Source of the DNA: Chlorobium sp.
GTDB taxonomy: Bacteria; Bacteroidota; Chlorobiia; Chlorobiales; Chlorobiaceae
Length of the DNA stretch: 64,000 nucleotides
Assembly (NCBI GenBank): GCA_005862285.1
Contig: SZXW01000003.1
Location: 1-64,000, forward strand
Direction of reading: 5' to 3'
Numbering within the stretch: position 1 is the stretch's first letter; each line of letters starts with the position of its first letter. The notes beneath the pieces are model-generated. The model was not told where the DNA came from. It was given only the letters and a program-made list of their open reading frames with translations, and made no database searches. A program made the translations under genes and the position numbers. Of the stretch, positions 1,262 to 30,524 are shown piece by piece.

Positions 1262-3886
1262 GTGCCTTCACAAAAAAAAGGATATGCAACACAGCTTGAG
1301 GAAAACGGGCGTCAGTACGCTCAGGTATTTTCAATCATACATCAGAAACTGATTTCGCTACCTTTAGCTCTCAAGCGTATAATTGCGATCACCTTCGATA
1401 TCTGTTCAGCGATTGTATGCCTCTGGTTTGCATTTGCACTTCGTCTCGAATACTGGCAGTGGCCGCAGGGAATGCAGGGGATTCTGTTTTTTATAGCGCC
1501 GGCATTGGTGCTGCCGGTATTTTTTACTTCAGGTCTCTATCACACTGTCAACCGGCATAGCGGTTTCAGTACCTTTCTGAACGTTTTCCAGACCTCATTG
1601 ATATACGGGCTTCTTTTTTTTCCGATCGTTCAACTTCTTGCCCTGCCATCCGTTCCCCGATCGATCGGCATTCTTCAGCCGATCATGTTTCTGCTTGCGA
1701 CCGGCGGCAGCAGGGCATTGGTAAGGTTCCTGCATGCTTCCAATCCTGTGTTGCTGAAAAAATGTGGATCAAGGGAAAAGCTTCTCATCTATGGAGCTGG
1801 GAGTGCCGGAGTAGAAATAGCGCATGCAATAAGCAAAAATTCTAAATTCGATATTGCAGGTTTTATCGATGACGATGAAAAGCTGCAAGGGCGAACGATA
1901 AACGGTATGAAAGTTTACAGTCCAATACAGGCGGAAGGTTTGATAGCAAAAGAGAACATAGACAATATTTTGCTTGCGATGCCTTCGGTAAGCCGCAGCC
2001 GGAGAAACGAAATTGTCGAGAAATTTCAGAAGTATCCTGTCAAGCTGAGAATGCTTCCAAGTGTCGAAGAACTTGCCAACGGAAAAGTCAGCATAACGGA
2101 TATCAAGGAGATCGATATCGAGGACCTGCTTGGACGTGATCCTGTTCCGGTAGATCATAAAAAGGTTGCCGATTCGATTACCGGGAAAGTAGTCATGGTT
2201 ACTGGTGCGGGAGGCAGTATCGGCAGTGAACTGTGCCGTCAGTTGCTTCATTCTCTCCCTTCCACCATTCTGCTTGTCGACAATACCGAGTACAATCTTT
2301 TTGCAATACATGGTGATCTCGAAAACCGTGTGAAAAAGCATGATGCAGTCCGTATCCTGCCTTTTCTTTGCGATGTGACGGATGAAAACCGTGTTTCAGA
2401 GATCTGCAAAGTATTCAGGCCGGAAGTGATTTACCATGCAGCGGCATACAAGCATGTGCCGATGGTCGAGTTCAATCCAGCCGAAGGAGTAAGAAACAAC
2501 GTATTCGGTACGCAGAGTGTGGTTGAAGCTGCGATACAACATCAGGTGTCGAGGGTTGTGTTGGTGAGTACGGACAAAGCGGTGCGCCCAACCAATATCA
2601 TGGGTGCAAGCAAACGGCTTTGTGAGTTGATCGTTCAGGCAAAAGCAGCTGAAGCGGGACAAAAGACTGTTTTTTCCATGGTGAGGTTCGGCAATGTTCT
2701 TGGTTCGAGCGGATCGGTCATCCCTCATTTCAAAAGACAGATTAAAAAGGGCGGCCCGATAACGATTACCCATAAGGAGATCACCCGCTATTTCATGACG
2801 ATCCCTGAAGCTGCGCAGCTTGTGATACAGGCAGGAGCAATGGCAACCGGAGGAGATCTCTTTCTGCTCGAGATGGGTGAGCCGGTAAAAATTGTCAATC
2901 TTGCAAGGAAAATGGTGGAGTTATCAGGTCTTTCCGTTCGTGATGAACATAATCCGGATGGAGATATCGAGCTGCTTGAAACCGGACTGCGTCCAGGAGA
3001 AAAGCTGTATGAAGAACTGTTGATAGCTGCCGATGCTGCTACACCAACAGCCAATCCCCGTATTTACAAAGCGCATGAGCATTTTCTCTCATGGCGCAAA
3101 CTGCAGGAGGAACTTGCATTTCTTCTGTTTGCCATCAATCGTAACGATGTAGAGTTTCTAAAACAAAGTCTGAAGAGATTGGTCCCCGGATATCAACCGA
3201 TGGTAGCGACGACGGATCTTCTTGCCATCGAGAAAGAGAAAATAGCTGTCGAGGAAGCAGAGGAAAATATACAGGAATCATTTGCAGATATTCATGCGGT
3301 TTATCCTGATCATAAAAACGGCTATCGTGCAAGAATTCCAGTTTTGGCAGACAGCTATTTGCCTCCATCTGATCTGCAGAATGGTACACATAAGCATAAA
3401 CAGCAGAGGGCAATGGTAACGGAGTACTACTTCAAACAGCTTAATAACCATGCAGAACATACTTCTGACATAACTATTGAACCTTCATTACCGGAAAAAG
3501 GAAACAACTCTGGGTTTATACCGACATTGAATATTCTTATCGCAGAAGATGACAAGACAAGCAGTCTGATGCTCAAGTCAATTCTCAAAGGTGTCAATAT
3601 CACTATTTTTCATGCCGACAATGGTCTGGAAGCGGTAGAACTGGTTCGCCGACATCCGGAGATCAATATCGTGCTTATGGATATCAAGATGCCAGTTATG
3701 GATGGATTCGAGGCTACAAAGCTTATAAGAGAAATGAGATCAGATCTGCCTGTTATTGCTCAGTCTGCATATGATTCGAAACAATTTAAAGAAAAAGCAA
3801 AAGATGTCGGTTGTGATAGTTTTATAGCCAAGCCAATCAAAAAGGATGAACTTCTTGAGGTTATACAGGTACAGTTGAATAAGTGA
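1262..3886 (+). CDS. PglF/WbpM-type UDP-GlcNAc 4,6-dehydratase fused to a response-regulator receiver domain
   Basis: An 874-residue protein with a GTG start. About four membrane segments lie in residues 35-155, followed by a first Rossmann fold (YGAGSAGVEIA near 177). The catalytic NAD-dependent dehydratase domain follows, with VTGAGGSIGSE near 313-323 and the WbpM-type STDKAVRP and MGASKR motifs. This is the architecture of membrane UDP-GlcNAc C6-dehydratases (PglF, WbpM, CapD). It would supply the 4-keto-6-deoxy sugar for UDP-diNAcBac, consistent with the PglE-, PglD- and PglC-like genes near 28-30 kb. Unusually, after a linker of about 130 residues, residues 756-874 form a CheY-like receiver domain. 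That domain keeps the acidic pair (AEDD), the phospho-acceptor Asp807 (MDIKMPVMDG), a Ser in the Thr position and Lys in AKPI. The reading frame is continuous. No histidine kinase lies in the window. Confidence 0.9.
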   Translation: MPSQKKGYATQLEENGRQYAQVFSIIHQKLISLPLALKRIIAITFDICSAIVCLWFAFALRLEYWQWPQGMQGILFFIAPALVLPVFFTSGLYHTVNRHSGFSTFLNVFQTSLIYGLLFFPIVQLLALPSVPRSIGILQPIMFLLATGGSRALVRFLHASNPVLLKKCGSREKLLIYGAGSAGVEIAHAISKNSKFDIAGFIDDDEKLQGRTINGMKVYSPIQAEGLIAKENIDNILLAMPSVSRSRRNEIVEKFQKYPVKLRMLPSVEELANGKVSITDIKEIDIEDLLGRDPVPVDHKKVADSITGKVVMVTGAGGSIGSELCRQLLHSLPSTILLVDNTEYNLFAIHGDLENRVKKHDAVRILPFLCDVTDENRVSEICKVFRPEVIYHAAAYKHVPMVEFNPAEGVRNNVFGTQSVVEAAIQHQVSRVVLVSTDKAVRPTNIMGASKRLCELIVQAKAAEAGQKTVFSMVRFGNVLGSSGSVIPHFKRQIKKGGPITITHKEITRYFMTIPEAAQLVIQAGAMATGGDLFLLEMGEPVKIVNLARKMVELSGLSVRDEHNPDGDIELLETGLRPGEKLYEELLIAADAATPTANPRIYKAHEHFLSWRKLQEELAFLLFAINRNDVEFLKQSLKRLVPGYQPMVATTDLLAIEKEKIAVEEAEENIQESFADIHAVYPDHKNGYRARIPVLADSYLPPSDLQNGTHKHKQQRAMVTEYYFKQLNNHAEHTSDITIEPSLPEKGNNSGFIPTLNILIAEDDKTSSLMLKSILKGVNITIFHADNGLEAVELVRRHPEINIVLMDIKMPVMDGFEATKLIREMRSDLPVIAQSAYDSKQFKEKAKDVGCDSFIAKPIKKDELLEVIQVQLNK

Positions 3887-4680
<794 letters not shown>

Positions 4681-11559: not shown

Positions 11560-12780
11560 AGAATAAAAAAAAGATGTCTTAAGTTGCAAAAGCTTTTGGT
11601 TGAAAAATACGAAAATACTCTGCTTGTGAAAGATATCCTAAGGATAAATCTGCTCTTATCCGGTTATAAAATAAATGGATAATAAAAAAACTCTTCTTAA
11701 GTTCATCTTGAATATGAGATATTCTTCCGTAGATACATTTATTTTGAAGATCTTGATAAATGTATCTATTACGGCATTATCATAGCATTATTCTTTTCCA
11801 CTTGTACTTTGGATCATATCTCAGTATGCTAGTTTATTACTGAAATATTTACTAGCATACTGTATACCAAGATCTGAATATCAGATTACTCCTACTTTTG
11901 GCTACCAATGCATCACAACCGTCTACAGAGCTGGATTGACTTTCTTTTCGGTTTTAAGGCTGTTACTTCAGCAAATATCCAATGATCTCTCGATTGAAGA
12001 GGTCCAAAATCACTTTTATGTACTCTATCCTTTATCAGTACGAGGATAGGTTATATCACTCTTCCAAACATCGAAAGGTGTTTCTGCTAAGAATTCTTGT
12101 TCCAAGAGGTTTTGTTTTACGGACTCTTTATGGTTCGAGTCGGTCGTGATTTTAAACATTTTGACACATTTACCCCTGGATACATAACACTCAAATCAAT
12201 CGGGCTACTCGAGAACGGCTGAAAAGAATGCTCATTTTCTGTAAAGTATCGGAAATTCCGGGACTTCCGGGTTTCGTGGATTTCTTTGTGGTTTTCCTTG
12301 ATAGCAGTCATGCACTTGACGTTCTCTTGTATTCTTTTGTTTTCTGGTCGATTTATCCATGCATAATACCAGCTGATAGAGACGCCAAACACTTTGCAAA
12401 TGGTACTGATAGAAAACATATTATTGTAAACATTTAAAAAGCTATAAATCAGTGAATTGCGCGTGTGAACATAAAAAAGGTCTTGTTAAAGATATCTTAC
12501 TATTCAGTTACTAATCGCAGTTACCGATCACGTTGACGCAACTTTTCAGGCTCGGCATCTCTTTTGGGTTACCATTTCGAGGAAAGGCCCTTTCCTTCGA
12601 TCCCATGTACTTTAGCGTTCAACCTTTAGCCTTTAACGGTAAAGTTACATCGGGGTTAATTGCGAGAGTATATGCAATTTCTTTGGTGGTTTTGTTGCCT
12701 TTAAAAGTGATCTCATCTGCATCAATTATATTATTTTTATCATGCTGGTTGCGTGGCTTTTGATTCGTCATGATTCATGC
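11560..12780 (-). mobile_element. degraded IS3-family element
   Basis: Read on the minus strand, 12750-12530 gives an orfA remnant (FKGNKTTKEIAYTLAINPDVT). The stretch 12419-12117 gives an orfB N terminus (CKVFGVSISWYYAWINRPEN). Then come ETPFDVWKSDITYPRTDKG, VILDLFNREIIGYLLK, SDLGIQYASKYFSNKLAY, IQSTSGKE and CYDNAVIDTF, and near 11620 a tail like YNRIRADLSLGYLSQAEY. This is the full IS3 order with the DDE region, but broken by many stops and frameshifts. Exact ends were not located. The remainder of 11471-13094 is AT-rich with no gene. Confidence 0.8.
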
Positions 12781-17668: not shown

Positions 17669-19003
17669 TGTACACGGATTTTCAGACAAAGTTTTTAGGT
17701 GGTAATTTGCCCAAAAAAGGGACAAGTTATGAGCGAAAAGCAACGCAAAAGTTTTACGGCACAATTCAAGGCCATGGTGTCGCTTGAGGCGATCAGGGGA
17801 GAGAAAACCCTAACGAGATCGGCAGGGAATCCGATGATCACCCAATCTGGTTGGGCAATGGAAGCGGGAGGTACAAGAGAGCGCTACCGCTACCGGTCTG
17901 TTCGAAGTCAAACGGGGGAAGAAGCTTCGCACTACGCTTACAGATCCAGAAAAGCTGTACGCCGAATTAGGTCGGCTCAAAGTTCAGCTGGGTTGGCTGA
18001 AAAAAAAGTCGATCCGTACCTATTAAAGCGCTTAAAAGCTGGATAAGCGACAAGGAACAGTTGTCGGTATCGACACAATGTGAACTTGCCGGGGTAACCC
18101 GGTCAGGGTACTACTGGCAAAGAAAAAGCCTCATGCCAAATACTGAAGATCTGGAAATGATGAACCTTATCGACGAGGAGTACACCCGACATCCATTTTA
18201 TGGAAGCCGGTGGATGAAGCAGTTACTGCTCGCCCAAGGGCGCAAGGTCAAGTGGAAACGAGTGTAGCGCCTGATGCGTAAATGGGGCTTGCTGGTATGG
18301 CTCCAAGGCCCAATACCAGCAAGCCCCATCCGCAGCAAAAGATCTATCCATACCTGTTGCGAGGTCTTGCCATTACCAAACCGAATCATGTTTGGTCGAC
18401 CGATGTGACCTATTGCAGGTTACCCGGCGGCTTCATGTATCTGACGGCCGTCATCGACTGGTATTCTCGCAAGATGCTGGCATGGAGGCTTTCGAATTCC
18501 TTGGATAGCAGCTTCTGTGTTGATTGTCTGGAAGAAGCTATCCGCAAATACGCAATGCAGGAAACTTTCAACCCCGATCAGGGCACCCAGTGCACCAGCG
18601 AAGCGTATACCGGTGTGCTAAAGAGCCATGGCATCCGCATCAGTATTGATGGCCGGGTCGGGGCGCTGGACAATATCTTCGTCGAAAGGCTATGGCGGAA
18701 CCTCAAGCAAGAAGAGTTATATCTGAAAGACTATGAGACGCCAGTCGAATTGATGCGGGGATTAACGGAATATTTCTGTTTTTACAATATCAAGCGGCCT
18801 CATCAGTCGCTGGGGTACAAAACCCCGGACGAGGTATACGAAAGCGCAACAGGTGGTGCTCGCATCGTTGACAAGTTCTCTCAAAAGAGTGCCTCTGCCC
18901 GAATGGTCATCGGAGACTACAAGGCAGCAAAAAGAAGCTGCATAAGCAACCGGTGGGTTACCACCTTACACGTGACCTCTTTTTGTCTGCTCAATGTGGT
19001 CCA
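17669..19003 (+). mobile_element. defective IS3-family insertion sequence
   Basis: The orfA remnant starts at 17729 (MSEKQRKSFTAQFKA). It is shifted at least twice, and its end LYAELGRLKVQLGWLKKKS is readable in another frame near 17950-18010. orfB is split: 18061-18267 (QCELAGVTRSGYYWQRKSL ... YGSRWMKQLL, ending at a TAG) and 18282-19046 (PNHVWSTDVTYCRLPGGFMY, NPDQGTQCTSEAY, then VERLWRNLKQEELYLKDY). The DDE residues survive, but one nonsense codon and one single-base deletion near 18278 separate the halves. Imperfect ends TGTACA... (17669) and ...TGGTCCA (19003) share an outer TTTGTCTG inverted repeat. It cannot transpose on its own. Confidence 0.85.
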
Positions 19004-19411
19004 CTTCACCAATCTTTTCACCCGGCGGGAATTGTTAACCGTGTAAACTAATAGATGATAAATTTACCTTACCCGCGTACCTTTTGGTTCAAGCGAGTCA
19101 GTAGTTTTCGCTTGCTGTTATTTATGGCGTTTATTGATGATTCACTTACGTTAGCCATGTCACTCTGCTCCTTGACCCTCTCTACCTGCTATTGGCAGAT
19201 TCAGCTTTCCCTCAAGGGATCGCCTACAGTTTCCTGCGGGTACGTTTCCTGGCAGTTTCACACAGGCTGATTGCTCAACCTGCATGTGCCAGTGGGGCCA
19301 ACAACGGTACAGTTGGTTTTGCAAAGAACAATTCAATTACACGACTTCACGTCGCACCATCTATATTAACACATAGGGGGGCTAATACTTGTCAACATTC
19401 GGACACCAGTG
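19004..19411. other. non-coding stretch, no gene recognised
   Basis: This stretch of 408 bp lies between the IS3 right end and the next glycosyltransferase. Several short frames are open, but none shows a family motif or a ribosome binding site. It is less AT-rich than the genes on both sides and may be part of another mobile remnant. Nothing specific can be supported. Confidence 0.4.
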
Positions 19412-20557
19412 ATGAAAATACTAGTAAACGCTAGCACATTAGTTATTGGAGGTGGAATTCAAATTGGACTATCATTTATTCAGGAATCATTGAGAATTAC
19501 CTCGGTTGATTGGATATACTTAGTTTCACCAGGTATTTATTCGAATTTAGATCACAGGCTACAATCCGATTGTCGGGTAATATTAATTAAAGATTCACCA
19601 GCAAAACTATTGAAAGGTTATGCGTCTCGTAAAAAATTATATTCTATTTGTAAGAAAATAAAGCCGTCTATTGTTTATTCAATTGGGTTTCCTTCATATA
19701 TCTTGTTTAATGAGATTGAAATTGGACGTTATACGAATCCATGGGAGATTAATTCGCCGCCCCTGCCATGGGATACAATAAAAAACCCATTAAGTAAAAT
19801 AATAACTAAGGCAGGAATAAAATATCGTTTATTATGGGCTCGTAAAGCCAATTTTATAGAAACACAAACTGAAACAGCTAAAAAAGGCATTATTAGAAAT
19901 ACTGGAATTGAGCCGGAAAGAGTTTTTGTTATTCCAAATAATCCCAATAAAGTTTTTATTGAAAATGGCTTAAAGGAAAGATTTGAGTTGTTGTACGAAA
20001 AAAAAGGAAATATTGCTTTTTGTCTATCTGCACCATATGCGCATAAAAATTTAGAATTAATTCCAGAGGTTGCATATTGGTTGTGCAATAAATTTAATAA
20101 GCGGGTTAGCTTTATTCTTACTTTACCTAAGGATTCTGAGCTATGGAGAAATATAGAAAAAGAAGCTGAGAGGCTAAATGTTAATAATTTGGTTACAAAT
20201 GTTGGTGTGTTAAAAGTAAATGAATGTATAGAATATTATAAAAAGTCAAAGATAGTATTTTTGCCAACCTTGTTAGAAGTTTTCTCTGCTACTTATCTGG
20301 AGGCAATGGCAATGAAAGTACCTATTGTTACTACTGATTTAGAATTTGCACATGATAATTGTAAAGATGCAGCTATATATTATGAGCCTAGAAATTCAAA
20401 AGATGCCGCGTTAAAAATCAGAACTCTATTGGATGATAGATATCTTTATGAAGAGAAAGTTAGAAAAGGTGTGAAAATATTGAATTCTTATCCGACTATC
20501 GAAGAAAAGTTCACATTGTTATTGCAAACATTTATTAAAATAACCGCTGATGTGTAA
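19412..20557 (+). CDS. glycosyltransferase, GT4-like (WbuW position)
   Basis: About 381 residues from the ATG at 19412; the overlapping GTG at 19409 adds one Met. N-terminal MKILVNASTLVIGGGIQIGLSFI is a GT-B acceptor-domain start. The C-terminal domain has IAFCLSAPYAHKNLELIPEV, VTNVGVLKVNECIEYYKKSKIVFLPTLLE and VFSATYLEAMAMKVPIVTTD, the E-x7-E-like donor site. Its last 8 bases overlap the wbuX-like gene. In E. coli O145 a glycosyltransferase also precedes wbuXYZ, so it probably adds a sugar of the FucNAm-containing repeat unit. Donor specificity is not visible. Confidence 0.8.
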   Translation: MKILVNASTLVIGGGIQIGLSFIQESLRITSVDWIYLVSPGIYSNLDHRLQSDCRVILIKDSPAKLLKGYASRKKLYSICKKIKPSIVYSIGFPSYILFNEIEIGRYTNPWEINSPPLPWDTIKNPLSKIITKAGIKYRLLWARKANFIETQTETAKKGIIRNTGIEPERVFVIPNNPNKVFIENGLKERFELLYEKKGNIAFCLSAPYAHKNLELIPEVAYWLCNKFNKRVSFILTLPKDSELWRNIEKEAERLNVNNLVTNVGVLKVNECIEYYKKSKIVFLPTLLEVFSATYLEAMAMKVPIVTTDLEFAHDNCKDAAIYYEPRNSKDAALKIRTLLDDRYLYEEKVRKGVKILNSYPTIEEKFTLLLQTFIKITADV

Positions 20558-21692
20558 CAAATATCAAATATGTTCAAATTGTGTGATGGATACGTCTGAC
20601 CCAATTATATCCTTCGACAAGGATGGTATATGTGACCATTGTCATGACTTCGAAAATTATGTAAAACCAAATTGGTATACTGACGAAAAAGGCAGGAATC
20701 TATTGGAGGAAATAATAGAAAATATTAAAAAAGCAGGAAATAAAAACGAATTTGATTGTCTTCTTGGATTAAGCGGCGGGGTAGATAGCTCATATATGCT
20801 CCACCAGGCAGTAAAACAGTTAGGACTGAGACCACTGGTATTCCATGTTGACGGAGGATGGAATTCAGAACTTGCAGTACATAATATTAATGTAATGATT
20901 GACAAGCTTGGACTTGACCTTTACACTGAAGTGATCAATTGGGAGGAAATGAGAGATTTTCAACTTGCTTTCTTTAAGTCAGGAGTTCCGCATATTGACA
21001 TTCCTCAGGATCATGCATTTATTGCTACTCTCTATCAATTTGCAGAAAAATACAAGATTAAATATATCTTGAATGGCGGTAACTTTTCTACTGAATGTGT
21101 GCAGTATCCTATGAAATATTATTATTATGGCACGGATATGACTCAGATCAATGATATCAGAAAACGTTTTGGTACAATGGAAATGGAATCGTATCCATTT
21201 AGTTCTATTTATCGTCATAAAATATATTTAAAATACCTGAAGGGTGTTCGTGTTGTAAAGCCACTCAACTACATGCCTTTTATAAAACAGGAAGCTCTTG
21301 AGTTTCTAGAAAAGGAATATGATTGGAAGCCTTATCCCCAAAAACATTTTGAATCGCGTTTCACCCGTTTTTTTGAAAGTTATTGGCTGCCTGAGAGATT
21401 TGGTTTTGATCCTCGCAGAGTTCAGTATTCCAGTTTAATTCTAACTGGGCAAATGACTCGCGAAGATGCTCTTGAAAAGATGAAAAGCCCCGCATATATC
21501 CCTCAAACGATTGAAGAAGACTTCAACTATATTGCAACTAAAATGAGAATATCGCGTGAGGAATTGAAAGGATATTTTACAATGCCAAAAAAATATTATT
21601 GGTACTATAAAAACCAGCAAAATATTTTCAGGGTAGGAGCTAATATCTTGAATTTGATTGGCGTAGAGAAAGTAAAAAAACGTAATAAATGA
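20550..21692 (+). CDS. wbuX: N-acetyl sugar amidotransferase (WbuX/LfnA/WbpG family)
   Basis: A 380-residue protein. Two Cys pairs (C8/C11 in ICSNCVMD and C28/C31 in CDHC) make a zinc site. The ATP-pyrophosphatase P-loop LSGGVDSSYM lies near residues 74-83. GGNFSTECVQYP and the long basic C-terminal half are typical of the family. The enzyme activates the acetamido carbonyl of a sugar with ATP. Ammonia from the HisH/HisF-like pair then gives an acetamidino group. It overlaps the upstream glycosyltransferase by 8 bases and the next gene by 4. The order wbuX-wbuY-wbuZ-fnlA-fnlB-fnlC-wbuB matches the E. coli O145 arrangement as I recall it, so the likely product is L-FucNAm. The relation to P. 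aeruginosa LfnA and WbpG is from family knowledge. Confidence 0.88.
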   Translation: MCNKYQICSNCVMDTSDPIISFDKDGICDHCHDFENYVKPNWYTDEKGRNLLEEIIENIKKAGNKNEFDCLLGLSGGVDSSYMLHQAVKQLGLRPLVFHVDGGWNSELAVHNINVMIDKLGLDLYTEVINWEEMRDFQLAFFKSGVPHIDIPQDHAFIATLYQFAEKYKIKYILNGGNFSTECVQYPMKYYYYGTDMTQINDIRKRFGTMEMESYPFSSIYRHKIYLKYLKGVRVVKPLNYMPFIKQEALEFLEKEYDWKPYPQKHFESRFTRFFESYWLPERFGFDPRRVQYSSLILTGQMTREDALEKMKSPAYIPQTIEEDFNYIATKMRISREELKGYFTMPKKYYWYYKNQQNIFRVGANILNLIGVEKVKKRNK

Positions 21693-22303
21693 TTACAATA
21701 ATAGATTACGGTTTGGGCAATATCAGAGCCTTTGTAAATGTCTATGAACGACTTAACATAAAAATCAATATTGCTCATAATAGATCAGATATTATAAATG
21801 CAACAAAACTAATTTTGCCCGGAGTTGGATCTTTTGATTATGCAATGTCTCAATTAAATAACTCGGGCATGAGAGAGGTTCTTGAAGAGCAAGTTATAAG
21901 TCATAATGTTCCTGTAATTGGGATTTGTGTTGGTATGCAGATGATGGCAAAATCGAGCGATGAAGGTAAAATGTCAGGATTGGGATGGTTAGATGCAGAA
22001 GTAAAACTTTTTGATACTTCGCAAATACCATACAAAACACGTTTGCCACATATGGGCTGGAATACGATTAACATTACGAGGCAAAACATACTACTTGACC
22101 AACTAAACGACGTATCAAGGTTTTATTTTCTTCATTCATATTACTTTAGTTGCAATAAACAAGAAGATATTATAGCTAAAACAGAGTATGGCGCAGAATA
22201 TGCAAGCGCAATAAATAAAGGCAATATTTACGGTATTCAGTTTCATCCAGAAAAAAGCCATAAAAACGGTATTCAATTGTTACACAATTTTGCAAAACTC
22301 TGA
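21689..22303 (+). CDS. wbuY: HisH-like glutaminase for sugar amidation
   Basis: A 204-residue class I glutamine amidotransferase. The nucleophile is Cys80 in GICVGMQMM. The oxyanion/early motif is ILPGVGSFDYAM, and the His/Glu pair lies in YGIQFHPEKSH near 184-188, so the catalytic triad is complete. It hydrolyses glutamine to ammonia and should pair with the HisF-like protein 3 bases downstream. Although it is annotated as imidazole glycerol phosphate synthase subunit in many genomes, its place between an N-acetyl sugar amidotransferase and FucNAc genes argues for ammonia supply to WbuX rather than histidine synthesis. It overlaps the wbuX stop by 4 bases. Confidence 0.88.
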   Translation: MITIIDYGLGNIRAFVNVYERLNIKINIAHNRSDIINATKLILPGVGSFDYAMSQLNNSGMREVLEEQVISHNVPVIGICVGMQMMAKSSDEGKMSGLGWLDAEVKLFDTSQIPYKTRLPHMGWNTINITRQNILLDQLNDVSRFYFLHSYYFSCNKQEDIIAKTEYGAEYASAINKGNIYGIQFHPEKSHKNGIQLLHNFAKL

Positions 22304-22305
22304 AT

Positions 22306-23118
22306 ATGTTATACCCACGTATTATACCATGCCTGCTTCTCCATAAAAAAGGGCTGGTTAAGACAACAAAATTTAATGATCCAAAATATGTAGGAGATCC
22401 TATAAATGCAGTTAAAATATTTAATGAAAAAGAAGTTGATGAAATAATTGTAGTAGATATAGATGCTTCGCGTCATGGACATGAGCCAGACTATCAATTA
22501 ATTGAAAAGCTTGCTGTTGAGTGTCGCATGCCACTTTGTTATGGTGGCGGTATCAAAACGATTGAGCAGGCACAGCGAATATTTAGCCTCGGAGTAGAAA
22601 AAATAGCTATAAGTTCGGCGGCAATCAGCAAACCGGCTTTGATTACAGAAATAGCAGAAAGAGTTGGCAATCAGAGCGTTGTTGTCGTTCTTGATGTTAA
22701 GAAACGCATGATAGGAAGTAAATACGAAATTTACATCCATAATGGCACTCAGGCCACAGGAATAGATCCTGTTGTTTTTGCGAAACAGGCAGAAGAGCTT
22801 GGCACTGGAGAGATAGTGATTAACTCTATCGATCAGGATGGAGTGATGAAAGGCTATGATCAATCGCTTATCAATAAAATCAGGGAAGTTATTTCAATTC
22901 CGTTAACAGTATTAGGAGGAGCAAGCTCACTTGAAGATATTGGACAAATAATTCAGCAACATGGTATCATAGGTGTAGCCGCCGGGAGCCTTTTTGTATT
23001 TAAAGGAAAATTCAGAGCTGTTTTGATCAACTATCCAGTTCATGAGGAAAAGCAGAACCTTATAAGTAACTATTTTATAAATAAGTGGGAATGCAAGAAT
23101 AAAATAAAATATGTTTAA
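22306..23118 (+). CDS. wbuZ: HisF-like ammonia-channel subunit for sugar amidation
   Basis: A 270-residue TIM-barrel protein. RIIPCLLLHKKGLVKTTKF replaces the usual HisF IIPCLDVKDGRVVKG start, so the first catalytic Asp (Asp11 in HisF) is Leu. The second Asp, in VVVLDVKKRM, is kept. Other barrel motifs are VVDIDASRHG, CYGGGIKTIEQA and PLTVLGGASSLED. Loss of Asp11 fits a paralogue that channels ammonia to WbuX and does not close the imidazole ring. It is somewhat longer at the C terminus than usual HisF (about 255). It overlaps fnlA by 8 bases, tying the amidation trio to the FucNAc genes. Confidence 0.88.
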   Translation: MLYPRIIPCLLLHKKGLVKTTKFNDPKYVGDPINAVKIFNEKEVDEIIVVDIDASRHGHEPDYQLIEKLAVECRMPLCYGGGIKTIEQAQRIFSLGVEKIAISSAAISKPALITEIAERVGNQSVVVVLDVKKRMIGSKYEIYIHNGTQATGIDPVVFAKQAEELGTGEIVINSIDQDGVMKGYDQSLINKIREVISIPLTVLGGASSLEDIGQIIQQHGIIGVAAGSLFVFKGKFRAVLINYPVHEEKQNLISNYFINKWECKNKIKYV

Positions 23119-24133
23119 AAATAAAATATTATTAATTACCGGAGGAACCGGGACATTCGGTAATGCCGTATTACGGCGTTTTCTAAAGACAGATATCGCT
23201 GAAATCCGCGTATTCAGTCGCGATGAGAAGAAGCAGGACGATATGCGTAAGGAATATGCAAATTCAAAGCTGAAATTTTATATCGGAGATGTTCGCAATG
23301 CCGATAGCGTCCGAGATGCTATGGAGGGAGTTGATTTCATTTTTCATGCTGCCGCGTTGAAACAGGTTCCTTCATGCGAATTTTTTCCGGTAGAAGCTCT
23401 CCGAACCAATGCAATGGGAACGCATAATGTCTTAACACAGGCGACTGCAGCAGGCGTCAAGAAAGTAGTTGTGCTGAGTACAGACAAGGCTGTTTATCCG
23501 ATCAATGCCATGGGTATTTCAAAGGCCATGATGGAGAAGATCGCTGTAGCTCAGTCACGCGTTTCTGGCAGCCGGACGGTAATCAATGTAACCCGCTACG
23601 GAAACGTTATGGCAAGCCGTGGTTCGGTGATTCCACTTTTTATCAAGAATATACAGGAGGAAAAACCACTCACGGTTACCGACCCGAATATGACCCGGTT
23701 CATGATGAGTATCGATGATGCTGTGGATCTTGTACTTTATGCGTTTACTCATGGGCAGCCTGGGGATACTTTTGTGCAAAAGGCACCTTCCGCAACAATT
23801 GAAACACTGGCTCTGGCACTGAAAAAATTGCTCAAAACCGATGTTCCGGTCACCATCATTGGTACCAGACATGGTGAAAAACTCTACGAATCGCTTCTGA
23901 CCCGCGAAGAACTTGCAGTTGCTGATGACCTTGGTGGATACTACAGAGTCCCCGCCGATAACCGTGATTTGAATTATGCGGCATTTTTCAGCGAAGGACG
24001 CGAAGAGGTTTCGTTGAAGGAAGATTATAACTCACACAATACGCATCAAGTCGATGTGGATGGTATGTGTGACTTACTCATGAATCTTGAATGTGTTAAT
24101 GCCGCGATGAGAGGAGAGCGGATTGAAGTTTAA
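23111..24133 (+). CDS. fnlA: UDP-GlcNAc 4,6-dehydratase/5-epimerase (FnlA/WbjB/CapE)
   Basis: A 340-residue short-chain dehydrogenase fold. The NADP site ITGGTGTFGNAVLRR lies near residues 9-23. FHAAALKQVPSCEFFP and STDKAVYPINAMGISKAMMEK carry the catalytic Met/Lys arrangement of this inverting subclass. VTRYGNVMASRGSVIPLF and GTRHGEKLYESLL are further family motifs. It makes UDP-2-acetamido-2,6-dideoxy-beta-L-arabino-4-hexulose, the first step to UDP-L-FucNAc. It differs from the membrane dehydratase at 1262, which keeps the D-configuration. It overlaps wbuZ by 8 bases. GC content rises from here on compared with the preceding 15 kb. Confidence 0.93.
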   Translation: MFKNKILLITGGTGTFGNAVLRRFLKTDIAEIRVFSRDEKKQDDMRKEYANSKLKFYIGDVRNADSVRDAMEGVDFIFHAAALKQVPSCEFFPVEALRTNAMGTHNVLTQATAAGVKKVVVLSTDKAVYPINAMGISKAMMEKIAVAQSRVSGSRTVINVTRYGNVMASRGSVIPLFIKNIQEEKPLTVTDPNMTRFMMSIDDAVDLVLYAFTHGQPGDTFVQKAPSATIETLALALKKLLKTDVPVTIIGTRHGEKLYESLLTREELAVADDLGGYYRVPADNRDLNYAAFFSEGREEVSLKEDYNSHNTHQVDVDGMCDLLMNLECVNAAMRGERIEV

Positions 24134-24426
24134 GGATATTGTTGTTTAAGGATATTGTTATGTCCACGAATTCCACGAATTGACTCGAAGGAATCCGGTT
24201 TTGTTTTCCCGTTTGACGTCACATGATTAAAGCCCTCAAAGTTCTCCATAAGAAAAACTTGCATTTACATTTTACTGTTATACCGGTGATTGGGCTGTAA
24301 CCTCAAGGATTGATGTTTGACATTAAGCTGTTCCTGTTTGCACAAATTCTTCAATTCCACATTTAATTTGCTCATATTCTTGCGATTAGTAAATAAATCT
24401 CATCTGGTAATTCAGAAATCAAAAAT
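24134..24426. other. intergenic region with decayed sequence
   Basis: 293 bp between fnlA and fnlB, unusual because these genes normally abut. It contains a CACGAATTCCACGAATTGACTCGAAGG stretch (key unit CACGAATT), related to short stretches near 37146 and 38470. On the minus strand are small pieces reminiscent of a GxxExxY-type protein tail, too short to call. A new promoter could lie in its AT-rich 3' half. Confidence 0.35.
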
Positions 24427-25545
24427 ATGCTTGTTTTAGTTACTGGTTCGAATGGGTTTGTCGGTAGTAATCTTTGTACTGTTTTGCGGACAAAGGAAAA
24501 TGTTAAGGTTCTTGAGTTTGATTGTGATAATTCGTATGAAGAGCTGGAATGCATGCTCGGTGAGGCGGAGGTTGTTTTTCATCTTGCCGGAGTAAACCGG
24601 CCAAAAAATGAAGAAGAGTTCAGGACCGGAAATACCGGTTTTACAGAGGAAATCTGCAGTACGCTTCTGCGATTGAAACGCACTCCAAAGATCATTCTTG
24701 CATCATCTATTCAGGCAGAATTTGACAACCCATATGGAAGCAGCAAGCGTCAGGCTGAGACTGCGTTGCATGAATTTTCGGAAAAAACCGGTGCACACAC
24801 GGTGGTATACCGCTTCAAGAACCTTTTCGGAAAATGGTGCCGCCCGAACTATAATTCGGTGACAGCGACGTTCTGCCATAACACTGCCCATAATCTTCCA
24901 CTCACGATTTCCGATCCCGCTCGATCTATAGAACTGACCTATATCGACGATGTCGTCTCAGCCCTGATTGGCGAACTTCCTTTTGATGACGGCAATCGGG
25001 AGTCCGGGTTTGCATTTGCTCCTGAACTTGCAGCATACCTCATTACTCTCGGTCAACTTGCAGAGCTCATAACCTCATTTCGTGAATCAAGAGACACTCT
25101 GGTCCTGCCCGGATTTGACGATCGTTTTGTACGATCGCTCTACGCGACATACCTCTCATATCTTGAAGGCGACGATTTCGCTTACCAGCTTCAGATAAAA
25201 ACCGACGATAGAGGTACACTTGCGGAAATGATGAAAAGCAGTTCGTTCGGCCAGATTTTCGTTTCAAGGACAAAGCCAGGGATTACAAGGGGTAACCACT
25301 ATCATCACACCAAAACCGAGAAGTTTATGGTTGTTGAAGGTAGGGCGGTTATCCGTTTTCGCAAGATCGATGGGACTGAGGTTATCGAACATCATGTTTC
25401 AGGTGATGAGTTCAAGGTTGTCGATATTCCTCCCGGTTATACCCACCATATCACAAATATCGGAGAAAAAGAACTTGTCACTCTTTTTTGGGCATCCGAA
25501 ATCTTCAATCCGGATAAACCCGATACATATTTCATGAAAGTTTAA
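24427..25545 (+). CDS. fnlB: UDP-2-acetamido-2,6-dideoxy-hexulose reductase with C-terminal cupin (FnlB/WbjC/CapF)
   Basis: A 372-residue bifunctional protein. The N-terminal NAD(P) Rossmann domain starts LVLVTGSNGFVGSNL. VVFHLAGVNRPKNEEEF and the catalytic NPYGSSKRQAE (Tyr-x-x-x-Lys) follow, to about residue 245. The C-terminal 120 residues are a cupin with GITRGNHYHHTKTEKFMVVEG near 285 and YTHHITNIGEKELVTLFW, which hold the His metal ligands. It carries out the C3 epimerisation and C4 reduction giving UDP-L-PneNAc before the last epimerase step. Length equals CapF/WbjC. The ATG at 24427 begins right at the Rossmann strand. Separated from fnlC by a heptamer-repeat gap. Confidence 0.92.
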   Translation: MLVLVTGSNGFVGSNLCTVLRTKENVKVLEFDCDNSYEELECMLGEAEVVFHLAGVNRPKNEEEFRTGNTGFTEEICSTLLRLKRTPKIILASSIQAEFDNPYGSSKRQAETALHEFSEKTGAHTVVYRFKNLFGKWCRPNYNSVTATFCHNTAHNLPLTISDPARSIELTYIDDVVSALIGELPFDDGNRESGFAFAPELAAYLITLGQLAELITSFRESRDTLVLPGFDDRFVRSLYATYLSYLEGDDFAYQLQIKTDDRGTLAEMMKSSSFGQIFVSRTKPGITRGNHYHHTKTEKFMVVEGRAVIRFRKIDGTEVIEHHVSGDEFKVVDIPPGYTHHITNIGEKELVTLFWASEIFNPDKPDTYFMKV

Positions 25546-25713: not shown

Positions 25714-26844
25714 TTGACGAAGTTAAAAGTAATGACCATCGTGGGTACCCGTCCGGAGATTATCCGGCTTTCAAGGGTGCTGGCAAAGCTCGATGCTTAT
25801 ACTGACCACATTCTCGTCCATACAGGACAGAACTACGATTACGAGCTGAACGAGATATTTTTTGAAGATCTCGGAATCAGAAAACCCGACCATTTTCTTG
25901 AAGCGGCAGGAGCGACAGCAGCTGAAACCGTCGGTCAGATATTTTCAAAAGCCGACTGTGTCATGGAACAAGAAAAGCCCGAAGCTATTCTTATTCTTGG
26001 GGACACCAATTCCTGTCTTGCAGCATATCCCGCGAAAAGACGAAAAATACCTGTTTTCCATATGGAGGCGGGAAACCGGTGTTTCGATCAGCGCGTACCT
26101 GAAGAGACAAATCGCAAGATTGTCGATCATATAGCGGACATAAACCTCACTTACAGTGATATAGCACGAGAATACCTTCTGCGTGAAGGCCTTGCAGCTG
26201 ACCGAATCATAAAGACCGGCAGCCCCATGTTCGAAGTGTTGACCTATTACAAGGAAAAAATTGATCGGTCGGATGTACTTGAACGTCTGAAGCTTGTAGC
26301 GGGTGATTATTTTGTAGTGAGTGCGCATCGCGAAGAGAATATCGAATCGGAAAGGAATTTTTACAATCTCGTTGAAATTCTCAATACCCTTGTAACCGAA
26401 TACGGTAAAAGGGTCATTGTTTCCACTCATCCAAGAACACGCAAACGAATTGAAGCGAGCGGCATTGTCTTCAATGAAAAGGTCGAGTTGTTGAAACCTC
26501 TTGGTTTTACTGATTACAACCACTTACAGCTTCATGCACGGGCGGTGCTTTCCGACAGCGGCACCATTACTGAAGAGTCTTCCATTCTCAATTTTCCAGC
26601 ACTCAATATTCGCGAGGCGCATGAGCGTCCGGAAGGAATGGAGGAGGCATCGGTGATGATGGTTGGTCTTGATGTGAACCGTGTTATGCAGGCGCTTGCG
26701 ATTCTCGACACTCAGACTCGGGGGGAACAGAGGACCTTGAGGCAGGTTGCTGATTATTCCATGCCCAATGTTTCGGAAAAGGTGGTCAGGATAATTCACA
26801 GTTATACCGATTATGTGAATCGGGTTGTGTGGAAAAAATATTAA
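25714..26844 (+). CDS. fnlC: UDP-N-acetyl sugar 2-epimerase forming UDP-L-FucNAc (FnlC/WbjD/CapG)
   Basis: A 376-residue protein of the non-hydrolysing WecB-like 2-epimerase family, GT-B-like fold. Motifs are [16 protein letters not shown] at the N terminus, [48 protein letters not shown] and [14 protein letters not shown]. It converts UDP-L-PneNAc to UDP-L-FucNAc. The start is TTG at 25714 because the usual N terminus (two to four residues before KVMTIVGTR) needs it; the ATG at 25732 would cut into the first strand. The repeat-filled gap upstream may separate it from the fnlB promoter. It overlaps wbuB by about 20 bases. Confidence 0.92.
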
Positions 26845-28096: not shown

Positions 28097-28705
28097 ATGA
28101 AACGATTATTTGATCTTGTTCTTACTATCCCGGGAATTCTTTTTGTTCTGCCATTATTACTGATTCTTGGAATCATGGTTAGGTTATTCCATGGCAGCCC
28201 GATATTTTTTTCGCAAATAAGGCCGGGTCAGAAAGGGCAGCCTTTCCGGATGTTCAAATTCAGAACGATGACGAATGCACGGGATGCTGCCGGTAATCTT
28301 TTACCTGACAAAGACCGTCTGACAACTTTTGGGAGATTTCTCAGAGCAACCAGTCTCGATGAGTTTCCGGAACTCATCAATGTTCTTAAAGGTGAAATGA
28401 GCCTTGTTGGTCCGCGACCGTTGTTAATGGAATACCTGCCGCTTTATTCATCTGAACAGAACCGCCGCCACGAGGTTAAGCCTGGAATGACAGGTTGGGC
28501 ACAGGTGAACGGACGGAATGCCATCAGTTGGGAAGAAAAATTCAAACTGGATGTCTGGTATGTTGATAATCAATCATTGTGGCTGGATATCAGAATACTT
28601 GCCATTACTATGCGTAATGTTTTGTTACGTAAAGGAATAAATCATAACGCAACTGAAACGATGCCTTTTTTTACAGGTACAGGCCCGCTTGATGTTCATG
28701 GTTAG
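28097..28705 (+). CDS. PglC-like initiating phosphoglycosyltransferase
   Basis: A 202-residue small monotopic sugar transferase. One N-terminal re-entrant hydrophobic helix (residues 4-28) is followed by the catalytic core. Core motifs are KGQPFRMFKFRTMTNA, then TSLDEFPELINVLKGEMSLVGPRPLL with the catalytic Asp-Glu pair (SLDEFPE), and PGMTGWAQVNGRNAISWEEKF. It transfers a sugar phosphate to undecaprenyl phosphate to begin the repeat unit. With PglD- and PglE-like genes next to it, the likely donor is UDP-diNAcBac. QuiNAc or FucNAc donors are alternatives. It is separated from the acetyltransferase gene by 6 bases. Confidence 0.9.
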   Translation: MKRLFDLVLTIPGILFVLPLLLILGIMVRLFHGSPIFFSQIRPGQKGQPFRMFKFRTMTNARDAAGNLLPDKDRLTTFGRFLRATSLDEFPELINVLKGEMSLVGPRPLLMEYLPLYSSEQNRRHEVKPGMTGWAQVNGRNAISWEEKFKLDVWYVDNQSLWLDIRILAITMRNVLLRKGINHNATETMPFFTGTGPLDVHG

Positions 28706-28711
28706 AGAATT

Positions 28712-29353
28712 ATGGCGATAGAAAAACTTGCTATTATTGGTGCAAGCGGACATGGGAAGGTTGTTGCCGATGCAGCATTGTGCTCAGGTTGGGATGAAGT
28801 GATTTTTTTTGATGATGCATGGCCGGAGTTATCAAAAGTAGGAATATGGAAGGTTATTGGCAATACCCGGAAGCTTTTGGAACAGGGTGAAAATATTGGA
28901 AAAGTGGTTGTTGCTATTGGTAATAATGCAATACGACTGGAAAAGCAGCAATCATTACAAATAGCAAATATTCCACTTGCAACGATCATTCATCCTTCGG
29001 CAATAATAAGCCCTTTTTCTGAAATCGGTTCAGGGAGTGTTGTATTTGCCGGTGCGGTAATAAACCCATTTGCGCAAATTGGTTCCGGATGCATTATAAA
29101 TACAGGTTCTTCAATCGATCATGATTGTTGGATTGCTGACGGAGTTCATATAAGTCCAGGGGCTCATTTAGGAGGTAATGTTCATGTGGGCAGGGCTACA
29201 TGGTTAGGTATAGGCACCTCAGTTAAACATGGGATTCATATAGGTGAAAATGTCATTGTGGGAGCAGGAGCAGCCGTAGTCAATGATATTGCATCGGGTT
29301 TGACAGTGGTCGGTGTACCTGCACGAGAAATAACTATTAAAATACATGCTTAA
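28712..29353 (+). CDS. PglD-like sugar N-acetyltransferase
   Basis: A 213-residue two-domain protein. The N-terminal Rossmann-like UDP-sugar-binding domain reads KLAIIGASGHGKVVADAA. The C-terminal left-handed beta-helix contains NTGSSIDHDCWIADGVHISP with the catalytic His, and GAAVVNDIASGLTVVGVPAREI. This is the PglD/NeuD family. It would acetylate the 4-amino group of UDP-4-amino-4,6-dideoxy-GlcNAc made by the neighbouring aminotransferase, giving UDP-diNAcBac. It overlaps the aminotransferase gene by 8 bases. Confidence 0.9.
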   Translation: MAIEKLAIIGASGHGKVVADAALCSGWDEVIFFDDAWPELSKVGIWKVIGNTRKLLEQGENIGKVVVAIGNNAIRLEKQQSLQIANIPLATIIHPSAIISPFSEIGSGSVVFAGAVINPFAQIGSGCIINTGSSIDHDCWIADGVHISPGAHLGGNVHVGRATWLGIGTSVKHGIHIGENVIVGAGAAVVNDIASGLTVVGVPAREITIKIHA

Positions 29354-30524
29354 TACCTCATTTCCCCCTTGGCCATCTTATACCAAAGAAGAAGCAGATA
29401 CCGTTTCTCATACAATCCTTTCAAATAAAGTCAATTACTGGACTGGTCAGGAATGCAGGGAATTTGAAACAGAGTTTGCCGCTTGGTCGGAGTGTGAGTA
29501 TGCAATAGCACTTGCAAATGGAACTCTGGCGCTGGAAGTTGCACTGAGGGTTCTGGGGATTGGCGATGGTGACGAAGTTGTCATGACTCCTCGTACATTC
29601 ATTGCATCAGCATCCTGTATTGTGGCAATGGGCGCTGTGCCGGTTTTTGCTGACGTCGATCGCGATACGCAGAATATTACTGCTGCAACCATTTCAGAGG
29701 TTATTACTCCACGAACGAAAGCAGTTATCTGCGTTCATCTCGCCGGAATGCCATGCGATATGGATCCTATAATGCAAATTGCTGCAGATAAGAGTTTGTT
29801 CGTCATTGAGGATTGTGCTCAGGCTCATGGTGCGAAATATAAAGGAAAATCGGTCGGTTCGATTGGTCATATCGGTGCATGGTCATTCTGCCAGGATAAG
29901 ATCATGACTACTGGCGGTGAAGGTGGTATGGTGACGACTAATGATCGTGAGTTATGGTCGAGAATGTGGTCATACAAGGATCACGGGAAATCATGGGATG
30001 CTGTCTATACAAAAGAGCATCCTCCGGGGTTTCGCTGGTTGCATGAATCGTTTGGATCGAATTACCGGATGCTTGAAATACAGGCAGCAATCGGCAGGAT
30101 TCAGCTCAAAAAGATGGCGGAATGGACGAAAATACGACAATCACATGCCCATCGCATTTGGGAAACCGTTCGTCAAATTTCCGGTTTACGAGCACCTGAA
30201 ATTCCTGATTGGGCTGAACACGCAGCTTATAAATGCTATGTGTTTGTTGAGCCTGATCTGCTGAAAGAAGGCTGGAATCGTGATCAGATCATGGCTGAAA
30301 TTAATAAAAAAGGTGTGCCCTGTTACTCTGGTTCATGTTCAGAGATATACCTTGAAAAGGCATTTGAAGGAACCGGATGGCGACCTGAAAAGCGGTTGCC
30401 AGTTGCAAAAGAACTTGGTGAGACAAGTCTGATGTTTCTTGTCCATCCTACGCTCCAGGAAGAACACATTGAAAAAACTTGCAGTGTCCTTTCTGATGTT
30501 ATGAAAGAAGCCATGATTGAGTGA
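29346..30524 (+). CDS. PglE-like DegT/DnrJ/EryC1/StrS aminotransferase
   Basis: A 392-residue PLP-dependent sugar aminotransferase. ALANGTLALEVALRVLGIG is the cofactor phosphate region. VIEDCAQAHGAKYKGKSVGSIG carries the Asp contacting the pyridine. The Schiff-base Lys185 is in SFCQDKIMTTGGEGGM. SNYRMLEIQAAIGRIQL is the usual later motif. It converts the 4-keto sugar from the membrane dehydratase at 1262 into the 4-amino sugar, with glutamate as donor. It is the last gene of the polysaccharide block, and the heptamer arrays and toxin-antitoxin island start immediately after it. Confidence 0.9.
   Translation: MLNTSFPPWPSYTKEEADTVSHTILSNKVNYWTGQECREFETEFAAWSECEYAIALANGTLALEVALRVLGIGDGDEVVMTPRTFIASASCIVAMGAVPVFADVDRDTQNITAATISEVITPRTKAVICVHLAGMPCDMDPIMQIAADKSLFVIEDCAQAHGAKYKGKSVGSIGHIGAWSFCQDKIMTTGGEGGMVTTNDRELWSRMWSYKDHGKSWDAVYTKEHPPGFRWLHESFGSNYRMLEIQAAIGRIQLKKMAEWTKIRQSHAHRIWETVRQISGLRAPEIPDWAEHAAYKCYVFVEPDLLKEGWNRDQIMAEINKKGVPCYSGSCSEIYLEKAFEGTGWRPEKRLPVAKELGETSLMFLVHPTLQEEHIEKTCSVLSDVMKEAMIE

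Follow-up and report, generated by a model that had tools for sequence, protein, structure and literature searches.

A response-regulator receiver domain fused to a PglF-type UDP-GlcNAc 4,6-dehydratase in Chlorobium and its possible role in diNAcBac synthesis

Transcription, c-di-GMP and tyrosine kinases are the usual explanations of how surface glycans are controlled. At the beginning of contig C9 of a Chlorobium genome, where the 64-kb stretch of DNA analysed here (the window) also starts, an open reading frame raises the question of whether a two-component system can act on such a pathway at the enzyme itself. If so, the receiver on the dehydratase that opens the pathway would couple the precursor flux directly to an environmental sensor, with no need for transcription.

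The first-pass annotation described this gene as a membrane PglF-type dehydratase with a complete receiver domain on its C terminus, which proved correct: PF02719 and PF00072 lie with all their key residues in one uninterrupted frame on the forward strand, without a stop or frame change at the junction. The features of the gene are as follows.

1262..3886, + strand: fused gene, PglF-type dehydratase plus receiver (874 aa, GTG start)
1364..1762, + strand: N-terminal membrane helices, residues 35-167 (AlphaFold2 helices 35-62, 70-90, 102-126 and 134-167)
1775..2059, + strand: N-terminal nucleotide-binding domain, PglD_N / CoA_binding_3-like, residues 172-266 (Pfam PF17836 and PF13727)
2192..3076, + strand: catalytic SDR domain PF02719, residues 311-605 (TGAGGSIG cofactor motif, T437-D438-K439, M447xxxK451)
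3311..3517, + strand: linker, residues 684-752 (predicted disordered, pLDDT < 50; not conserved)
3533..3865, + strand: receiver domain PF00072, residues 758-868 (Pfam, AlphaFold2)
3680..3682, + strand: codon of the predicted phospho-acceptor D807 (sequence, alignment)

The enzyme half shows the Polysacc_synt_2 domain (E 2.6e-121), with the TGxxGxxG motif and the catalytic T-D-K and MxxxK residues retained, in addition to the membrane helices and a second nucleotide-binding domain, for which PDB 3nkl is a match over residues 170-295. The closest solved structure is PglF of Campylobacter jejuni (WlaL, 5bju), matched over residues 282-613 (E 1.9e-90). Moreover, the fused gene encodes the only full-length PglF-type enzyme found in the genome, the other match being a short FnlA-like enzyme at 23111. 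Thus, domains, motifs and the cluster partners listed below give good support to the prediction that the product is a membrane-anchored PglF-type UDP-GlcNAc 4,6-dehydratase. In the AlphaFold2 model, for which 80 sequences were aligned, confidence is high for the membrane helices, for the two Rossmann-type domains and for the receiver (mostly above 90 in the last), and the 69 residues of the linker fall below a pLDDT of 50, as expected of a disordered tether.

Further genes of the pathway are found in the same cluster, and a small gene precedes the dehydratase.

894-1169: small secreted Gly/Asn/Asp/His-rich protein
28097..28705, + strand: PglC-like monotopic phosphoglycosyltransferase (best PDB match N,N'-diacetylbacillosaminyl-1-phosphate transferase, 8g1n, E 3e-59)
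28712..29353, + strand: PglD/NeuD-like N-acetyltransferase (TIGR03570 above cut-off; best PDB match Neisseria pilin glycosylation protein, 4m98)
29346..30524, + strand: PglE-like DegT/DnrJ aminotransferase (domain and structure matches)

The presence of the aminotransferase, the acetyltransferase and the PglC-like transferase in the cluster of the fused dehydratase makes the assignment to diNAcBac well supported, as the first-pass annotation had anticipated, with UDP-diNAcBac as the predicted product. This PglF-E-D-C set is the same as the EpsC-N-M-L set of Bacillus subtilis (PMC10653937). Other genes of the region concern the rest of the glycan. A WbuX/HisH/WbuZ-type amidation set lies beside FnlA/FnlB-like genes and a UDP-GlcNAc 2-epimerase-family gene (20550-25545 and 25714-26844), which suggests that this glycan also includes an N-acetyl-fucosamine-type sugar in amidated form. 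Read by eye, positions 4286-4575 hold a remnant of a GDP-mannose 4,6-dehydratase gene, in which N-terminal and C-terminal-like pieces are present and the middle is missing, and the cluster also contains an integrase-core (rve) transposase ORF (18282-19046) and an apparent transposase fragment (12117-12419, minus strand). The small secreted protein is encoded directly upstream of the dehydratase in three genomes (L178, 4836-5177, minus strand, and L179, 5701-6045, besides the window), next to an outer-membrane-type protein; the order of outer-membrane protein, small secreted protein and dehydratase is common to the window, G046 and G013.

The same pair of domains, which it had been proposed to look for in other genomes, was found in two other Chlorobiaceae, G046 (L110, 817 aa) and G067 (L028/L139, 856 aa). 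A homologue of the dehydratase (E <= 1e-100) is present in 33 of the 86 genomes of the family and carries the receiver in 3 of the 33, about 30 other family homologues being without it; the receiver is therefore absent from most orthologues but not from all, whereas absence from all would have told against the original reading. Outside the family the fusion was not seen. No further receiver fusion appeared among the 119 homologue-bearing genomes (27 Chlorobiaceae and 92 outside the family) of a sample of 297 Bacteroidota, nor among the 146 of 299 Pseudomonadota with a homologue, absence in both samples being assessed from the lengths of the open frames and from inspection of the long ones. Long ORFs in G193 and in the Pseudomonadota G547, G536, G406, G599 and G408 were discarded, as their extra length is N-terminal and holds no receiver. 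A separate contig scan gave at least 80 homologue loci, with one fusion (L028) among those listed; all these counts describe samples and not all genomes. As a separate observation, the unfused dehydratase of G013 (L109, 761 aa; L179 8431-10465, contig C24) has a tail of approximately 80 residues, closely followed by transposase-like ORFs at the edge of the contig. A truncation by a mobile element with loss of the receiver is possible there, although this linker is unlike that of the window, no detached receiver was found and the presumed transposon end is single-copy.

The receiver itself is complete (E 1.5e-24). It shows the acidic pair E762/D763, the phospho-acceptor D807, whose numbering in the first-pass annotation agrees with the codon listed above, S835, K857 and the aromatic switch residue F854. 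Hence, the protein has a receiver fold with the acidic pair, phospho-Asp, S/T and Lys of a response regulator, covalently joined to an enzyme domain; the PF13641 glycosyltransferase output domain known from REC-BcsA-like fusions was absent from it in the Pfam search. In the alignment of the three fused receivers, which are pairwise 54-62% identical, the acidic pair, phospho-Asp, S/T, aromatic switch position and Lys are kept in 3/3, with S835/F854, T/Y and T/F as the respective S/T and aromatic pairs. The synonymous differences are saturated (pS 0.76-0.92) and the nonsynonymous ones low (pN 0.20-0.31), which, together with the retention of all phosphorylation residues, indicates from these alignments that the receiver is maintained by purifying selection. 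The linkers, meanwhile, range from about 20 to 90 residues and resemble each other no better than shuffled sequence. The sparse yet repeated occurrence of the fusion and its conserved switch residues support a function in phosphorylation.

Regarding its origin, the window receiver groups in one clade (support 100/99) with the terminal receivers of Chlorobium PAS-hybrid histidine kinases, to which it is 52-63% identical; judging from these trees, the fused receivers are derived from this hybrid-kinase clade. The three fused copies are adjacent in two larger trees, of 37 and of 101 receivers, and lie outside the main kinase-receiver clade (88 rows in the tree of 101, where they are its neighbours). 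They form one clade in the smaller tree (97/78), and this grouping is not rejected in the larger one (p-AU 0.36), trees of 120 columns in which a single origin is consistent but not proven. The dehydratase halves, however, reject a single clade, both for all three (p-AU 4e-10) and for the window and G046 (2.9e-6), and the enzyme closest to that of G046, L029 (71% identical), lacks a receiver. As the receivers group together and the dehydratase halves do not, the module appears to represent a single old lineage, with either many losses or movement between alleles of the glycan locus. Simple vertical descent without loss is rejected by the dehydratase tree, and independent capture from the kinases of each genome is not favoured, as in both receiver trees the fused copies are adjacent to each other and never placed with kinases of their own genome.

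This ancestry directs attention to the kinases. The genome has three kinases of the relevant PAS-hybrid subfamily, with cores 59-68% identical, two of which are hybrids that carry a receiver of their own. L184 (G000:C1:757.5-760 kb; also L233), the third, of 770 aa, has the arrangement PAS-PAS-HisKA-HATPase and ends right after the ATPase domain, where an in-frame TAG is followed by approximately 23 residues of a receiver start (TTILIAEDDETSSFLLNKNLKGE) and then by unrelated sequence. Since its own receiver is broken off, and all receivers of this class in the genome except the fused one sit on kinases, L184 is the best candidate for the orphan kinase that the first-pass annotation had suggested seeking, as yet an unproven candidate for acting on D807. 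The subfamily is present in 3/3 genomes with the fusion and in 26/86 of the family (hypergeometric p about 0.025, calculated by hand and uncorrected for relatedness). Genomes that lack the fusion have receiver-less members too, and the matches listed for G046 and G067 included none, so co-occurrence across species does not support a receiver-less kinase as the partner in those two genomes, where hybrid kinases may serve instead. The genome also encodes HPt domains, one of them in a 177-aa ORF, which leaves a phosphorelay route open. Apart from this, the subfamily has undergone a strong and patchy expansion, with copy numbers per genome between 0 and 22 in a single genus (G045, for example, has 22 matches), some of them without a receiver.

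Considering these data, we favour, with somewhat better than even confidence, the proposal that the fused protein is a response regulator with an enzymatic output, in which a kinase of the PAS-hybrid subfamily would control the amount of active dehydratase through phosphorylation of D807. The dehydratase half would start the synthesis of UDP-diNAcBac for the surface glycan of the cluster, a Chlorobium histidine kinase of this subfamily, with L184 as the best candidate, would phosphorylate D807, and the tethered receiver would then change the amount of active enzyme. The linker is long, disordered and variable, making a rigid allosteric coupling unlikely; phosphorylation-dependent self-association or docking on the enzyme would be the most likely route, and recruitment is another. 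The phosphorylation, the partner kinase and the sign and mechanism of the effect are what we infer from features read in the DNA: the fusion, the intact receiver residues, purifying selection, recurrence in three genomes, the pathway partners and a receiver-less kinase of the same subfamily. On this basis, a sensor probably controls the dehydratase directly; against the proposal stand the absence of the fusion from nearly all homologues and the descent of the receiver from those of hybrid kinases, among which at least one that has been studied, CckA, undergoes no allosteric change when activated (PMC9981736). The wider picture, in which a two-component system of green sulfur bacteria gates the committed diNAcBac enzyme directly, with a switch that stems from the receiver of a sensor kinase and has persisted as a module of this glycan locus in several species, is plausible but falls short of an even bet. 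The natural pairs of enzymes with and without the fusion, together with a kinase with a broken-off receiver, make the idea of control directly testable.

The main rival supposes that the receiver is a relay or a sink, taking phosphate from hybrid kinases or passing it on to HPt proteins, with the dehydratase serving as a membrane anchor of uncontrolled activity. Its standing comes from the ancestry of the fused receiver among the terminal receivers of hybrid kinases, a class to which CckA belongs, whose receiver undergoes no allosteric change on activation (PMC9981736), and the flexible linker and the HPt domains of the genome would also suit it. A sink, however, needs no enzyme, and the receiver is tied to the same pathway-entry enzyme in three genomes, with its S/T and aromatic switch pair kept, so this reading is considered unlikely. 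The long flexible tether would equally agree with a receiver by which the dehydratase is recruited, localised or targeted for proteolysis, so that phosphorylation sets its amount or place and not its specific activity. Receiver adaptors of this kind are known, such as CpdR (described in PMC9981736); nevertheless, no adaptor motif or partner was found for the fused protein, and such a role appears rather improbable.

The patchy distribution and the absence of the fusion from the closest relatives could also be read as a near-neutral accident, or the receiver could be released by internal translation initiation, given that the window has an ATG at residue 718 preceded by AGAGGG, a plausible ribosome-binding site. 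An accident agrees poorly with purifying selection and with the retention of all residues in three genomes at saturated synonymous divergence, and in the G067 copy the 110 codons before the receiver contain no internal start codon; we regard both variants as very improbable. As for an assembly or sequencing artefact, such as the frameshift near the junction that had been named as a possible objection, the independent occurrences in three genomes, two of them other members of the family, with different linkers reduce its probability to a negligible level, and on sequence grounds it is rejected.

Compared to known systems, the window protein shares the membrane helices, the two Rossmann-type domains and the T-D-K and MxxxK residues with the long PF02719 dehydratases bound to the membrane, namely C. 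jejuni PglF, B. subtilis EpsC and Staphylococcus aureus CapD, and so too the PglC/D/E-type partners in its cluster (PMC10653937). Unlike it, the PglF/EpsC/CapD-type homologues examined outside Chlorobiaceae have no C-terminal receiver, and the related receivers of Chlorobium PAS-hybrid kinases are located on the kinase, whereas that of the window is on a dehydratase. The first-pass annotation treated such a fusion as not known to be described, and this stands for the domain pair itself, since the open-licence literature searched gave no account of a PglF-type dehydratase with a receiver. It does not extend to the principle, as metabolic enzymes with a receiver are already known as a rare class, of narrow distribution in archaea (PMC5847659); what may be new is a PglF-type dehydratase as the output of a receiver. 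An example of that class is MTH_548 of Methanobacteriaceae, where REC is joined to a BcsA-like glycosyltransferase, similarly on a polysaccharide enzyme and with a narrow phyletic spread (PMC5847659). The window fusion differs from MTH_548 in being bacterial, in the family and fold of its enzyme, in having REC C-terminal on a membrane dehydratase and in acting at precursor synthesis. By function, the closest documented analogue is the CapAB system of S. aureus, where phosphorylation controls the early capsule enzymes CapE, a dehydratase, and CapM, a transferase (PMC6441080); there, however, a BY-kinase phosphorylates tyrosines, and it is not the PglF-like CapD that receives the phosphate (PMC6441080).
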